This document shows, piece by piece, positions 15,337-29,801 of a DNA stretch of 36,626 nucleotides. Within the stretch, counting starts at the first letter, position 1; each line of letters begins with the position of its first letter. The DNA comes from Bacteroidales bacterium (GTDB lineage Bacteria > Bacteroidota > Bacteroidia > Bacteroidales > UBA932). The notes under the pieces were generated by a model. The model was not told the origin of the DNA. It ran no database searches and saw only the letters and a program-made list of their open reading frames with translations. The stretch spans positions 7,529 to 44,154 of the forward strand of contig JAQVRQ010000009.1 of assembly GCA_028700975.1 (NCBI GenBank), in the 5' to 3' direction. Position numbers and translations under genes: made by a program.

Positions 15337-17535
15337 TTAGTTACCCATCTCAGAGAGGAATTTTATTCTAACAAGACGAATCTCCTCTTCTGTATAACCT
15401 CTTCCTAGCTCATCAGAGGCCTCCTTAAGAGAATCTGATACAGCTTCTGTTCTGAAAAATTCATAAATATCGTCTGTTTTATCTTCGTCAATAGTCTGAC
15501 GAATATAGTAGTCGATATTTATTTTTGTACCCGAATTAACTATTGCCTCAATTTCATCAAGGATTTCATCCATCTCCAATCCTTTTGAATCTGCGATATC
15601 CTCTAAAGGAAGCTTTCTGTCAATCCCCTGAATAATGGAGACTTTAATAGCCGATTTGTTTACAACAGACTTTACAACAAAATCTACCGGTCTCTCTATC
15701 TCATTTTCGGTTACATACTTTGAAATCAAGTCAATAAACTCCTTGCCGAACTTCTTAGCTTTACCTTCTCCAACGCCCTGACAATTACGCAATTCCTCTA
15801 CTGTAATAGGGTAGTGAATTGACATATCCTCAAGAGATGGATCTGAATAAATTACAAAAGGGGGTAATTTTAGTCTTTTAGCAACAGACTGCCTCAAATC
15901 TTTAAGCATTGAAAGGAGAGTCTCATCACCAGCTGAAGAGCCTCTGGAAGAGCCGGCAACTATTGGTTCATCATCTGGTTCGTCATCTGTATACTCTCTA
16001 TCTTCAGCGAGCATTAATTCAACAGGGTTCTCAAAAAACTGCCTACCCGCCTCTGTTACAGAGATAAGGCCATACTTTTCAATATCCTTCTCAATTAAAT
16101 GGTGTACAAGAGCTTGCCTTATAACGGCCAACCAAAATTTGACTCCTTTTGACTTGCCTGCTCCAAAAAATTCAAGATTATTATGGTTATATGACTTAAT
16201 AATTGAATTTGATACTCCGGCAAGTATATTTGCCAAGTGTTCTGACTTGAACTGCTCTTTCATTGACAGGATTAACTCCAGTAAAAGTGCAACCTCCTCC
16301 TTTCCATCAAATAATTTTTTAGGTGATAGGCAATTATCACAGGCACCACAATTCTCTTGTGAGTACTCTTCGCCAAAATAGTTTAAAAGAACCTTTCTTC
16401 TGCATAGGCTTGACTCCGCATAAGCAGCAGTTTCCATAAGTAGTTGCCTCCCTATCTCTTGTTCAGAAATAGGTTTACCCTGCATAAACTTCTCTAACTT
16501 CTGTATATCCTTATACGAATAAAAGGCTATACACCTCCCTTCTCCCCCATCTCTACCGGATCTTCCTGTCTCCTGATAATAGCTCTCAAGACTTTTAGGA
16601 ATATCGTAATGTATCACAAATCTAACATCAGGTTTGTCAATACCCATACCAAAAGCGATAGTAGCAACAATAACATCTGCCTCCTCCATAAGGAACTTGT
16701 CCTGATTAGTTGCTCTTCTCGAGGCGTCAAGCCCTGCGTGATATGGTAATGCTTTTATACCATTGACAGATAAGAGTTGAGCAACCTCCTCAACCTTTTT
16801 TCTGCTAAGGCAATAAATAATCCCGGATTTACCTGAATTTGATTTAATATACTTGATTATCTCTCTCTCTGTATTAACTTTTGAGCGAATTTCATAAAAA
16901 AGATTTTCTCTGTTGAATGAGGTTTTAAAAACCCTAGCATCAAGCATTCCAAGATTTCGCTGAATATCATTCTGTACCTTAGGAGTAGCCGTTGCAGTTA
17001 GCGCAATAACAGGAGCTTTACCTATCTCTTGTACAATGGGATTAATACGCCTGTATTCAGGACGGAAGTCGTGACCCCATTCAGATATACAATGGGCTTC
17101 ATCAACCGCATAAAATGATATCTTTAATTGTTTAAGAAAATTAATATTCTCCTCTTTTGTAAGAGACTCTGGAGCAACATAAAGCAATTTAGTCTGCCCA
17201 GAGAGCAGATCCTCCTTAACCTCTTGTATTTGGGCCTTATTGAGTGATGAATTTAAAAAATGAGCAATCCCCTCTCTCTCAACAACAAATCCCCTGATTG
17301 CATCTACCTGATTTTTCATAAGAGCAATAAGAGGTGATATAATTATAGCTACACCCGGCAACAATAGAGCCGGTAATTGATAGCACAGAGACTTACCTCC
17401 ACCTGTAGGCATCAAAACAAAAGCATCGTTCCCCTCTAAAAGATGTCTAATTACATCCTCTTGCTCCCCCTTGAAGCTGCTAAAGCCGAAAAAGTGCTTA
17501 AGTTGACTGTGCAAAAACTCAGAACTGGTTTGCAT
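15337..17535 (-). CDS. recQ: ATP-dependent DNA helicase RecQ
   Basis: 'MPTGGGKSLCYQLPALL', 'DEAHCISEWGHDFRPEY', RecQ Zn cysteines 'CRRKVLLNYFGEEYSQENCGACDNC', HRDC-like region and an extra C-terminal helical domain. Confidence 0.96.
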   Translation of the reverse strand: MQTSSEFLHSQLKHFFGFSSFKGEQEDVIRHLLEGNDAFVLMPTGGGKSLCYQLPALLLPGVAIIISPLIALMKNQVDAIRGFVVEREGIAHFLNSSLNKAQIQEVKEDLLSGQTKLLYVAPESLTKEENINFLKQLKISFYAVDEAHCISEWGHDFRPEYRRINPIVQEIGKAPVIALTATATPKVQNDIQRNLGMLDARVFKTSFNRENLFYEIRSKVNTEREIIKYIKSNSGKSGIIYCLSRKKVEEVAQLLSVNGIKALPYHAGLDASRRATNQDKFLMEEADVIVATIAFGMGIDKPDVRFVIHYDIPKSLESYYQETGRSGRDGGEGRCIAFYSYKDIQKLEKFMQGKPISEQEIGRQLLMETAAYAESSLCRRKVLLNYFGEEYSQENCGACDNCLSPKKLFDGKEEVALLLELILSMKEQFKSEHLANILAGVSNSIIKSYNHNNLEFFGAGKSKGVKFWLAVIRQALVHHLIEKDIEKYGLISVTEAGRQFFENPVELMLAEDREYTDDEPDDEPIVAGSSRGSSAGDETLLSMLKDLRQSVAKRLKLPPFVIYSDPSLEDMSIHYPITVEELRNCQGVGEGKAKKFGKEFIDLISKYVTENEIERPVDFVVKSVVNKSAIKVSIIQGIDRKLPLEDIADSKGLEMDEILDEIEAIVNSGTKINIDYYIRQTIDEDKTDDIYEFFRTEAVSDSLKEASDELGRGYTEEEIRLVRIKFLSEMGN

Positions 17536-17693
17536 ATTTATTGTGTGTCCGAAAAATTCAAAATTTCGTTAAAAAAAGTTACCTTTGTTCCTCTAAGTTA
17601 TCTAATAGTTTCATTATCGCAAAATTTTTTGAAAAAGTGATTGTTACTGTTGAGATAAAAAGAATAACCATTTAATTGAAATAGAGCACAACA

Positions 17694-18722
17694 ATGACAA
17701 TTTTCAACCCTAACGACCCGGGATTAGCAAATGGTAACTATTTTGCTCTCCCATATAGCCTAGAGGAGTCTGAAATTGCCCTAATATCTGTTCCTTGGGA
17801 CGTAACTACCTCTTATAGAGCAGGAACACACAAAGGCCCCAAATCCATAATTGAAGCATCTGTTCAGGTTGATCTTTATGATGTAAATGTTAAAGATGCT
17901 TGGAATACTAAAATTGGAACTCTACCAGTTGATAATGAGATACCTAAGCAGAACAAAAAATTTAGAAAGATTGCCGAAACGGTTATTGATGGTCTTGAGC
18001 AGGGGAGAGATTTAAGCGAGTTTGAAGAGGAGAGTGCTAAAATCAATTCTGCAAGTGCAGCTCTAAACGAAAGAGTCTACAATTCGTGTAGAAAACTTAT
18101 CAACCAAGGAAAAATTACAGGTGTTGTTGGAGGAGATCACAGTGTCCCTTTAGGCAATATTAAAGCAGTCTCTGAGCTTTGTGAGGAGTTTGGGATTTTA
18201 CATCTTGACGCTCACGCAGATCTGCGAAAAGCCTACGAAGGATTTACCTATTCACACGCCTCTATAATGTACAACGCATTAAACGAGATTAATCAAATCT
18301 CTCAGCTTACCCAAGTAGGGGTAAGAGATTTTTGCGAAGAGGAGGCAGAAATAATAAACACAGATCCAAGAATCAGGTGTTTTACAGATTCAGAAATCAG
18401 AGGAAATCTTTATGATGGGAAAACCTGGAAACGTCAGTGTGAAGAGATAGTAGCAACTTTACCCTCAAATGTATACATCAGCTTTGATATTGACGGACTA
18501 TCACCTGATTTATGTCCAAATACCGGAACTCCCGTGCCAGGAGGACTAAGTTTCAGGGAGGTTGATTATCTTCTTAATATGCTAGCACAATCTAATAAGA
18601 AAATTATCGGGTTTGACCTTTGCGAGGTATCACCCGGCAAGGATAATGAGTGGGACGCCAATGTTGGTGCCAGAATTTTATACAAACTTGCCTTATACAC
18701 AAACTTGAACCAAAAAAAATAG
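17694..18722 (+). CDS. Arginase/agmatinase family ureohydrolase
   Basis: Mn-binding motifs 'GGDHSVPLG', 'LDAHADLR', 'SFDIDGLSP'. Confidence 0.9.
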   Translation: MTIFNPNDPGLANGNYFALPYSLEESEIALISVPWDVTTSYRAGTHKGPKSIIEASVQVDLYDVNVKDAWNTKIGTLPVDNEIPKQNKKFRKIAETVIDGLEQGRDLSEFEEESAKINSASAALNERVYNSCRKLINQGKITGVVGGDHSVPLGNIKAVSELCEEFGILHLDAHADLRKAYEGFTYSHASIMYNALNEINQISQLTQVGVRDFCEEEAEIINTDPRIRCFTDSEIRGNLYDGKTWKRQCEEIVATLPSNVYISFDIDGLSPDLCPNTGTPVPGGLSFREVDYLLNMLAQSNKKIIGFDLCEVSPGKDNEWDANVGARILYKLALYTNLNQKK

Positions 18723-18733
18723 CTCGATAAAGT

Positions 18734-20101
18734 ATGAGGTCTTTTAAGCACCTGTTAAAACTGAATAAAAGAATAGAGCTCAGGAATCTTTTCAGTACTT
18801 TCTTTAACAACTCATCTACCGGAGGAATACTATTACTTATATCCGTCATTGCAGCCCTTGTGATTGCTAATAATCCAGAGTGGGCTCATATTATGGATAT
18901 TCTTAATATTGAATTCGGCTTCTCATTAGGACGTTTCCATTTCGAAATGAGCGTGCTACATTGGATTAACGATGGGTTGATGACCATTTTTTTCCTTGTC
19001 GTAGGCCTTGAGATAAAAAGAGAGATGCTTGTTGGTGAATTATCAACATTTAAACAGGCTGCTCTACCAATCTTTGCCGCAATTGGAGGTATGGTCTTAC
19101 CTGCTCTTCTCTATGTTTTCTTTAATGAAAACACAATAAGTGAAAATGGTTGGGGAACTCCAATGGCCACTGATATTGCTTTTGCATTAGGGATATTATC
19201 CCTGTTAGGAAAGAGAGTCCCTGTCGCATTAAAGGTGTTCTTAACTGCACTTGCAATTGTTGACGACCTTGGTGCTATTATTGTTTTAGCAGTATTCTAC
19301 CCTACCCACGCCATTAATATTGAGCTTCTAATTTACTCGGGCATTCTCTTTACAATGTTACTTGCTTTTAATAGACTAAACATTAAAAAACCTGCATTTT
19401 ACATTGTTCCCGGAGTTATTCTGTGGTTCCTTATTCTAGGTTCAGGTATTCATGCTACAATCGCAGGTGTTTTACTAGCAATTACTATTCCCGGCAGAAG
19501 CAACATTAACGAAGTTAGGTTTATTGTTGGAAGCAGATATCTAATAAACAAGTTTGCTGCTGCCAGTGATCACAGACTAAAAGTTCTTTCAAATCACGAA
19601 CAGCAACAAGCTATTCATAGCCTTCATCAGAAATTGGACCAAGTGCATCCATTGATGATTAAGGTTGAACATATGCTACATCCGTGGGTAACATTTTTTA
19701 TTATGCCTGTGTTTGCACTTGCCAATGCAGGTGTGTTACTTGATCCAGGTCTTTTTAAAGAATCACTTGCTCCAATTGTTCCCGGAATATTTTTTGGATT
19801 ACTTTTTGGCAAACCATTCGGAATTTTTATTGCAAGTTGGATTGCCGTAAAGCTTAAAATAGCTGTTCTTCCAGGAGATATGACTTGGAGTCACGTTTTT
19901 TCTGTAGGAATTATTGCCGGCATTGGATTTACAATGTCTATCTTTATCGATAATCTTGCCTTTACAGACCAGAATGTTATTAATATGGGCAAAATGACAA
20001 TTATTGGGACATCATTTATTGCTGCAGTAATTGGACTTACTGCAATATTATTAACTACAAAGAATAAACAACAAACAACAAATAACAACAAAGAAAAATG
20101 A
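18734..20101 (+). CDS. nhaA: Na+/H+ antiporter NhaA
   Basis: 'INDGLMTIFFLVVGLEIKREMLVGELS', 'GTPMATDIAFALGIL', 'LAIVDDLGAIIVLAVFY', 'GIGFTMSIFI'. Polar low-complexity C-terminus (NKQQTTNNNKEK). Confidence 0.96.
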   Translation: MRSFKHLLKLNKRIELRNLFSTFFNNSSTGGILLLISVIAALVIANNPEWAHIMDILNIEFGFSLGRFHFEMSVLHWINDGLMTIFFLVVGLEIKREMLVGELSTFKQAALPIFAAIGGMVLPALLYVFFNENTISENGWGTPMATDIAFALGILSLLGKRVPVALKVFLTALAIVDDLGAIIVLAVFYPTHAINIELLIYSGILFTMLLAFNRLNIKKPAFYIVPGVILWFLILGSGIHATIAGVLLAITIPGRSNINEVRFIVGSRYLINKFAAASDHRLKVLSNHEQQQAIHSLHQKLDQVHPLMIKVEHMLHPWVTFFIMPVFALANAGVLLDPGLFKESLAPIVPGIFFGLLFGKPFGIFIASWIAVKLKIAVLPGDMTWSHVFSVGIIAGIGFTMSIFIDNLAFTDQNVINMGKMTIIGTSFIAAVIGLTAILLTTKNKQQTTNNNKEK

Positions 20102-20820
20102 AAACATTAAAATCGATTGCAATTGTAGCAATAGCTTCAGTTATGATCACATCTTGCGGAGAAAAGAAAAGTGCAGATTCTCTCAAAGTCTCAAAAGAGC
20201 TTACAGACTCTGCTAGCTACGCAGTGGGTGTATCTTTTGGGATGATGCTGAAAAATGCAAATTTCAATGACCTCAATTTTACAGAAATCAATAAAGCGAT
20301 GAAGGATGTTTTATCCGAAAATGAGCTTAAAATTGATGATATGACTGCTAATGTGGTTATTCAAAGATATATGACAATTAGACAAGAGGCAATTGGAGAA
20401 GCTAACAAAGCAAAAGGAGTTGAATTTTTGGAGCAGAATAAGCAGAATGACAGCGTTCAAGTTGCAGAAAGTGGCCTTCAATACAAGATAATCATTCCTG
20501 GTTCTGACATTAAGCCGGAAGGAGAAGATACTGTTTCTGTTTTTTACAGAGGCACTCTCATCGATGGTACAGAATTCGATTCCTCAATGGGAAATAGCGA
20601 ACCTGTTAAGTTTCCTGTAAATGCTGTTATACCTGGATGGAGCGAAGGTATTAAGCTAATTGGAGAGGGTGGAAAGATAAGACTTTATATTCCATCTGAA
20701 CTTGCATACGGAGCACAACAAGCTGGGCCGGTTATTTCACCTAACTCAACTCTCATATTTGATGTAGATCTTGTTAAGGTAAGCAAAGCTACTACAAAAG
20801 AGGCTTCAAAGACTAATTAA
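20098..20820 (+). CDS. FKBP-type peptidyl-prolyl isomerase, lipoprotein
   Basis: Lipobox 'MITSC'; FKBP domain 'EDTVSVFYRGTLIDGTEFDSS...GWSEGIKLIGEGGKIRLYIPSELAYG'. Overlaps the nhaA stop by 4 nt. Confidence 0.93.
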   Translation: MKTLKSIAIVAIASVMITSCGEKKSADSLKVSKELTDSASYAVGVSFGMMLKNANFNDLNFTEINKAMKDVLSENELKIDDMTANVVIQRYMTIRQEAIGEANKAKGVEFLEQNKQNDSVQVAESGLQYKIIIPGSDIKPEGEDTVSVFYRGTLIDGTEFDSSMGNSEPVKFPVNAVIPGWSEGIKLIGEGGKIRLYIPSELAYGAQQAGPVISPNSTLIFDVDLVKVSKATTKEASKTN

Positions 20821-20822
20821 AT

Positions 20823-21188
20823 ATGGCACTGGAAATAATCGGAAAAATTCACTCCAAACTAAGTGTCCAAAATGGTGTTAGTGCTCGCGGTAACTGGAGT
20901 AAACAAGAGTTTATTGTAGAGACTCAAGAGCAGTATCCGAGGAAAGTCTGTATGAACGTTTGGGGTGCAGACAAGGTTGAGGAACTTGGGAGATATAATG
21001 AGGGAGAGGTTATTAAAATCTCTGTAAATATCGAATCTAGAGAGTTCAACAACCGTTGGTATACAGATGTAAGGGCCTGGAAAATTGAGAGAATGGAATC
21101 TCAGCAGACTCAACAAGAAGGCTTTACGCCTCCACCAACAATGCCAGATTTCCCTTCAGATAGTGGAGAAGATGATCTCCCATTCTAA
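20823..21188 (+). CDS. DUF3127 family protein with SSB-like acidic C-terminal tail
   Basis: 121 aa; 'ALEIIGKIHSKLSVQNGVSARGNWSKQEFIVETQEQYPRKVCMNVWG' matches DUF3127; C-terminus ends GEDDLPF. Confidence 0.85.
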   Translation: MALEIIGKIHSKLSVQNGVSARGNWSKQEFIVETQEQYPRKVCMNVWGADKVEELGRYNEGEVIKISVNIESREFNNRWYTDVRAWKIERMESQQTQQEGFTPPPTMPDFPSDSGEDDLPF

Positions 21189-21200
21189 GTAGAATTGTTT

Positions 21201-21242
21201 AATAAATGAGACCGACTGGAATTCTAGTCGGTCTCATTTATT
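21201..21242. terminator. Bidirectional intrinsic terminator between the DUF3127 gene and miaA
   Basis: AATAAATGAGACCGACT-GGAATTCT-AGTCGGTCTCATTTATT: 17-nt perfectly complementary arms, A/T tracts on both sides. Confidence 0.9.
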
Positions 21243-29450: not shown

Positions 29451-29801
29451 ATGAACATTTTCATTTCTAATCTGAGCTGGGCTATCAAAGATGGCGACCT
29501 CAGAGAATTGTTTGCCGAGTACGGCGAAATCTCATCTGCAAAAGTAATCATGGACAGAGAAACCGGTAAATCCAGAGGATTCGGTTTTGTTGAAATGCCT
29601 AATGAAGAAGAGGGTAAAAAGGCTATCGAAGAGCTTGACAAAGCTGAATACGATGGTAAAGTAATAACAGTTAACGTTGCAAAACCTCGTGAAGACAGAG
29701 GTGGCAGCAGAGGTGGCTTCGGCGGTGGAAATCGTGGTGGCGGCTTCGGTGGCGGAAATCGTGGCGGTGGATTTGACAGAGGAAGCAGAAGAAGCTACTA
29801 A
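29451..29801 (+). CDS. RNA-binding protein (single RRM, Gly/Arg-rich tail)
   Basis: RNP2 'NIFISNLSW', RNP1 'KSRGFGFVEM'; RGG-like C-terminus GGSRGGFGGGNRGGGFGGGNRGGGFDRGSRRSY. Confidence 0.96.
   Translation: MNIFISNLSWAIKDGDLRELFAEYGEISSAKVIMDRETGKSRGFGFVEMPNEEEGKKAIEELDKAEYDGKVITVNVAKPREDRGGSRGGFGGGNRGGGFGGGNRGGGFDRGSRRSY
29721..29774 (+). repeat. Two tandem imperfect 27-bp units encoding GGGNRGGGF
   Basis: 29721-29747 and 29748-29774 differ only at a few, synonymous positions; same peptide encoded twice. Confidence 0.85.

Follow-up and report, generated by a model that had tools for sequence, protein, structure and literature searches.

DUF3127, a probable compact second single-stranded DNA-binding protein of Bacteroidia with a conserved SSB-type tip

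Does a small protein that ends like the bacterial single-stranded DNA (ssDNA)-binding protein (SSB) also resemble SSB in fold, ancestry, and function? The question is raised by a DUF3127 gene in a 36,626-nucleotide stretch of DNA from a Bacteroidales bacterium, which is referred to below as the window. The reading frame (20823-21188, forward strand) is open from ATG to TAA, intact, and encodes 121 amino acids; residues 4 to 89 match PF11325 (DUF3127) in Pfam with an E value of 2.9e-32 (111.2 bits versus a gathering threshold of 27). The genome from which the window comes (85.7 percent complete at 1.95 Mb) holds DUF3127 as a single copy. An earlier note on this DNA had described a basic domain followed by a linker and an SSB-type acidic tip. 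The layout was confirmed: an OB core and a Pro/Gln-rich linker precede a GEDDLPF end (...MESQQTQQEGFTPPPTMPDFPSDSGEDDLPF; Table 1). The domain, however, is near neutral rather than basic, with a net charge of +1 in the window protein and a family mean of +0.5; the charge of the linker is -4 and that of the tip is -3.

Table 1. Features of the DUF3127 locus and its surroundings, in window coordinates
Feature	Position	Strand	Basis or remark
RecQ helicase	15337..17535	-	PDB match to E. coli RecQ, E=2.8e-133
FKBP-type peptidyl-prolyl isomerase-like gene	20098..20820	+	Stop 2 bases before DUF3127 start; label from reading the sequence, with no family scan behind the name
OB-fold core (DUF3127, PF11325), residues 1-90	20823..21092	+	Pfam, AlphaFold2 strands, PDB fold matches
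Flexible acidic Pro/Gln/Ser-rich linker, residues 91-114	21093..21164	+	pLDDT 64-69, variable across homologues
SSB-type tip GEDDLPF, residues 115-121, and stop codon	21165..21188	+	PF in 149/149 cellular homologues
Hairpin, 19-pair stem, between convergent DUF3127 and miaA-like genes	21201..21242		Fold z-score -8.1

The cellular homologues that we extracted end in PF without exception, usually after acidic residues and L, V, or I; their number adds 69 sequences from a sample of the phylum, the window protein included, to 80 loci from named genomes, two collections that differ and may overlap. In the phylum sample (69/69 with a PF end), the residue before PF is L, V, I, M, A, or C, and D or E stands one position further upstream in 65 of the 69. 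The named-genome loci (80/80) also supplied a background, and none of their 414 neighboring genes ends in PF. Only four columns, G7, D50, P120, and F121, were invariant in an alignment of 28 sequences, in which the length and sequence of the linker varied. The simplest reading of these patterns is that the terminal PF is under strong selection and does not reflect chance; the earlier note had named an unconserved tail as refuting evidence, and this test left its proposal standing. A DNA search of the same genome for the pattern [DE][DE][hydrophobic]PF-stop returned three matches: the DUF3127 gene, a second match ending in TGG instead of a stop codon, and a third for which no matching ORF of at least 100 amino acids was found. 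This pattern is too narrow, as it misses the DGDLPF tip of the canonical SSB of that genome.

A tip that is conserved as strongly as any core residue, and that resembles the tip of the canonical SSB in the same genomes, might also be expected if DUF3127 mainly controlled access to the partners of the SSB tip and bound little DNA. We consider this highly unlikely: core residues W25, K27, Q28, E33, R73, W79, and W86 are near-invariant too, and some phage copies keep the core but lack the tip, which argues that the core is useful alone.

We therefore asked what the core has in common with SSB once the tail is set aside. When a tail-free profile of the domain was compared with canonical SSBs of the same phylum using hhalign, with a flavobacterial-type DUF3127 member as the reference sequence, the match had an E value of 4.7e-6 (probability 86 percent) versus 0.68 for the reversed control; several profile settings were tried, so that this value is somewhat favored by choice and does not represent a single pre-planned test. 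The same comparison was weak when referenced to the window protein (P0001), with an E value of 0.0011 versus 0.35 for the reversed profile, and of 0.0047 with a smaller set. The homology is detectable in the beta3-alpha-beta4-beta5 part. When the P0001 profile is used, canonical SSB has aromatic residues at the positions aligned with W47 and F75; position 47 is W or F in 76 of 88 DUF3127 members, and position 75 is aromatic in 85 of 88. The window protein itself has no match to the canonical SSB model PF00436 at an E value of 1 or below, and among its relatives, sub-cut-off matches were seen in two only, the DUF3127 genes of genome G291 (E=9.3e-4) and phage phi10:1 (E=1.8e-4). The profile comparisons support the view that DUF3127 is related to SSB independently of the tail; the PF00436 cut-off is missed, and the description "SSB-type" is based on the combination of the fold, the profile homology, and the tip.

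An AlphaFold2 model built from 88 window and locus sequences had a mean pLDDT of 88.5, with about 96 in the core and 64 to 70 in the linker and tail. The predicted strands (residues 3-12, 16-20, 23-34, 41-47, 63-75, and 78-90) and helix (49-56) follow the order beta-beta-beta-alpha-beta-beta, which is that of an OB fold plus a short extra strand at residues 16-20. Searches of the PDB by sequence found no matching entry and thus no SSB; the matches obtained with a profile, MAD2 among them, were all at chance level. The search by fold was uniform: SSB, mitochondrial SSB, and PriB make up all of the best 50 matches listed (E values of about 1e-5 to 7e-5), the best of these 50 by TM score being Rim1 (0.76 by target length, 2.6 A), and the matches in a viral library are DUF3127 and SSB proteins. 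The OB-like fold suggested by the earlier note is thus recovered in prediction, and with the tail-free homology, so is its view of DUF3127 as an OB-fold relative of SSB.

PriB ranks with the best fold matches, at an identity that is slightly higher (18-19 percent), and DUF3127 could accordingly be a PriB-like primosome protein: its OB core would cooperate with PriA to restart replication, and its tip would add a contact with PriA or another SSB partner, without a general role in coating ssDNA. Like PriB, DUF3127 is predicted to be a single small SSB-derived OB fold; no PriB was found over the cut-off in 35 genomes (34 genomes with DUF3127 and the genome of the window), and PriA is present in the latter. 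Such a layout can work, since an engineered fusion of PriB to an SSB tail outperforms PriB in ssDNA binding and has a stimulating effect on PriA (PMC8509808). PriB, however, is by definition without a tail, and it has neither the linker nor the tip of DUF3127; SSB fold scores equal or exceed those of PriB, the window protein has no match to the PriB model TIGR04418 in NCBIfam at an E value of 1 or below, and priA linkage was not seen among the largest clusters of neighboring genes. Phages that carry DUF3127 where SSB was not found likewise point closer to an SSB role, and we regard a PriB-like function as unlikely.

OB folds also bind RNA, and DUF3127 might work in transcription or on RNA while its tip makes a different contact; this would be in keeping with a weak PC4 match in 1 of 88 members (E=0.0049) and with a preceding gene that is peptidyl-prolyl isomerase-like and not a DNA repair gene. 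Such a role seems to us very improbable, because fold and homology lie specifically in the SSB/PriB group, the tip is an SSB-partner motif, and two phages place the gene among DNA replication genes.

If DUF3127 is an SSB, it is not the only one in the cell. DUF3127 was found in 172 of 297 genomes of the phylum sample, including 73 of the 74 from the same class (Bacteroidia) and about half of those from other classes. Canonical SSB was present in all 34 DUF3127 genomes tested, and 27 of the 30 SSB loci read end in PF; DUF3127 therefore accompanies SSB in cells and does not replace it. Since the tips of DUF3127 and canonical SSB in a cell are usually alike, the two proteins probably draw on a common pool of partners. 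The genome of the window also encodes a second canonical-type SSB (PF00436; C122:15383-15688, reverse strand), which adjoins a cysteinyl-tRNA synthetase-like ORF and ends in HHQPATIE, without a tip, so that of the SSB-like proteins in this genome, two would seem to bear a tip and one to lack it. Genomes G291, G045, G077, and G232 have two DUF3127 matches each; the G291 copies (L043 and L044) differ in sequence type, and the tip is present in each.

Canonical SSBs (PF00436; E. coli SSB and B. subtilis SsbA) share with DUF3127 the OB fold, the flexible acidic linker, and a DD(L/I)PF-type tip. DUF3127 differs from them in falling below the PF00436 cut-off, in sharing its genome with a canonical SSB, in its shorter core (~90 residues) and short tail (~30 residues), and, in the subfamily of the window protein, in a very short beta4-beta5 turn. 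As a second SSB beside a main one, it is reminiscent of the SsbB-type secondary SSBs, whose S. aureus and B. subtilis representatives also rank high among the fold matches. SsbB is not known to have a conserved tip, whereas the tip of DUF3127 is present in every cellular copy extracted.

Relatives of DUF3127 are also encoded by phages, in 103 records that mainly come from Flavobacterium and Cellulophaga phages; a single-sequence scan of viral records gave no match, while an alignment of closer homologues did. For several of these phage members, the RefSeq name is "single strand DNA binding protein"; the window protein aligns over residues 3-121 with positions 1-117 of the 117-position profile phrog_4932, which bears the same name (E=3e-26). 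It and the phrog_4932 SSBs (of Cellulophaga, Flavobacterium, and Bacteroides phages) are one family end to end, tip included, although the latter are phage-borne and some viral copies lack the tip: PF is kept in 50 of 58 viral copies and absent from 8 (L185, L187, L191, L196, L197, L199, L200, and L201), several of which stop directly after the OB core. A Pantoea phage SSB has been reported to match both an SSB model and DUF3127 (PMC8004638). The description of the family as uncharacterized in the earlier note thus holds for Pfam but not for its phage members, which RefSeq and PHROGs name as SSB. These names derive in part from the DUF3127 match, and may also stem from remote homology; they indicate that the idea pre-exists and are not independent evidence for it. 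Our literature searches found nothing on PF11325, Flavobacterium phage SSB, or Bacteroides essential-gene screens.

Two annotated phage maps provide the replication and recombination context. In phi10:1, the DUF3127 gene lies between genes for an exonuclease and the NinG endonuclease, with a primase/helicase downstream, and in phage mumin9-1 it lies ahead of helicase and primase genes. SSB was above the cut-off in none of 41 virus records with DUF3127, but many of these records are fragments, and the absence is therefore weak evidence.

In the window, the stop codon of the FKBP-type gene is so close to the DUF3127 start that the two genes are probably co-transcribed. An FKBP-type homologue is found in 38 of 80 relatives' DUF3127 loci, mostly directly upstream. 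The hairpin that follows DUF3127 is very stable; it encloses a terminator-like match (21214-21233) and is probably a two-way terminator common to DUF3127 and the miaA-like gene. Farther along the window, positions 29451-29801 encode a small protein in which an RNA-recognition motif, as judged from its sequence, precedes a Gly/Arg-rich tail.

The earlier note had placed recQ in the window without adjacency, which is correct: it lies ~3.3 kb upstream of DUF3127, divergent from the FKBP-DUF3127 pair, with two more genes between it and the FKBP-type gene. A recQ homologue lies within 6 kb upstream of DUF3127 in 30 of 80 relatives' loci, nearly all of which also have the FKBP-type gene adjoining DUF3127. 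The three genes form a conserved neighborhood in many relatives (15337-21188 in the window; loci L078-L155 elsewhere). Judging by their titles, the recQ-bearing loci appear to be mainly from Bacteroidales, and shared ancestry may account for the conserved neighborhood. As for RecQ as a specific partner of the tip, the pocket that receives the SSB tip in E. coli RecQ was reportedly assigned by Shereda et al. in 2009 to R425, R448, R499, and R503. Only R499 of these four is identical in the local RecQ, with K in place of R448, S in place of R425, and E in place of R503. Because this pocket is only partly conserved, the RecQ-specific recruitment that had been put forward is unsupported. For RecO, a PDB search returned no match at an E value of 1 or below.

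The fold class, the SSB homology, the conservation of the tip, the co-occurrence with SSB, and the replication context in two phages, all obtained by computation, lead us to think it likely that DUF3127 is a divergent, compact second SSB of Bacteroidia that coats ssDNA and recruits the partners of the SSB tip; its ssDNA binding, oligomeric state, partner binding, and division of labor with SSB are what we infer from them. The OB-fold core would bind ssDNA, probably as an oligomer, via aromatic residues equivalent to those of SSB, and the flexible linker would present the DDLPF-type tip. In known SSB tips, the last Phe is buried in a hydrophobic pocket, basic residues hold its carboxyl group and the Asp residues, and deletion of this Phe abolishes the interactions in vitro (PMC10164576). 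The DUF3127 tip has the same form as the SSB tip in the same cells and should fit the same pockets, so its terminal Phe and acidic residues may dock into those of replication, repair, and recombination enzymes. DUF3127 and canonical SSB could then differ in the ssDNA that they coat or in when they act, and phages of Bacteroidia hosts could use the DUF3127 protein as their own SSB. It is conceivable, though we hold this only tentatively, that the two tip-bearing proteins form a two-SSB system read by common enzymes, with DUF3127 dedicated to, e.g., replication restart or recombination.

DNA replication and repair in bacteria are organized around SSB. If DUF3127 is indeed a second SSB, models of these processes for a whole class, common gut bacteria included, would miss a core player, and the source of SSB would be explained for many phages of Bacteroidia hosts. 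Two proteins offering one tip would, moreover, make the function of that tip directly testable.
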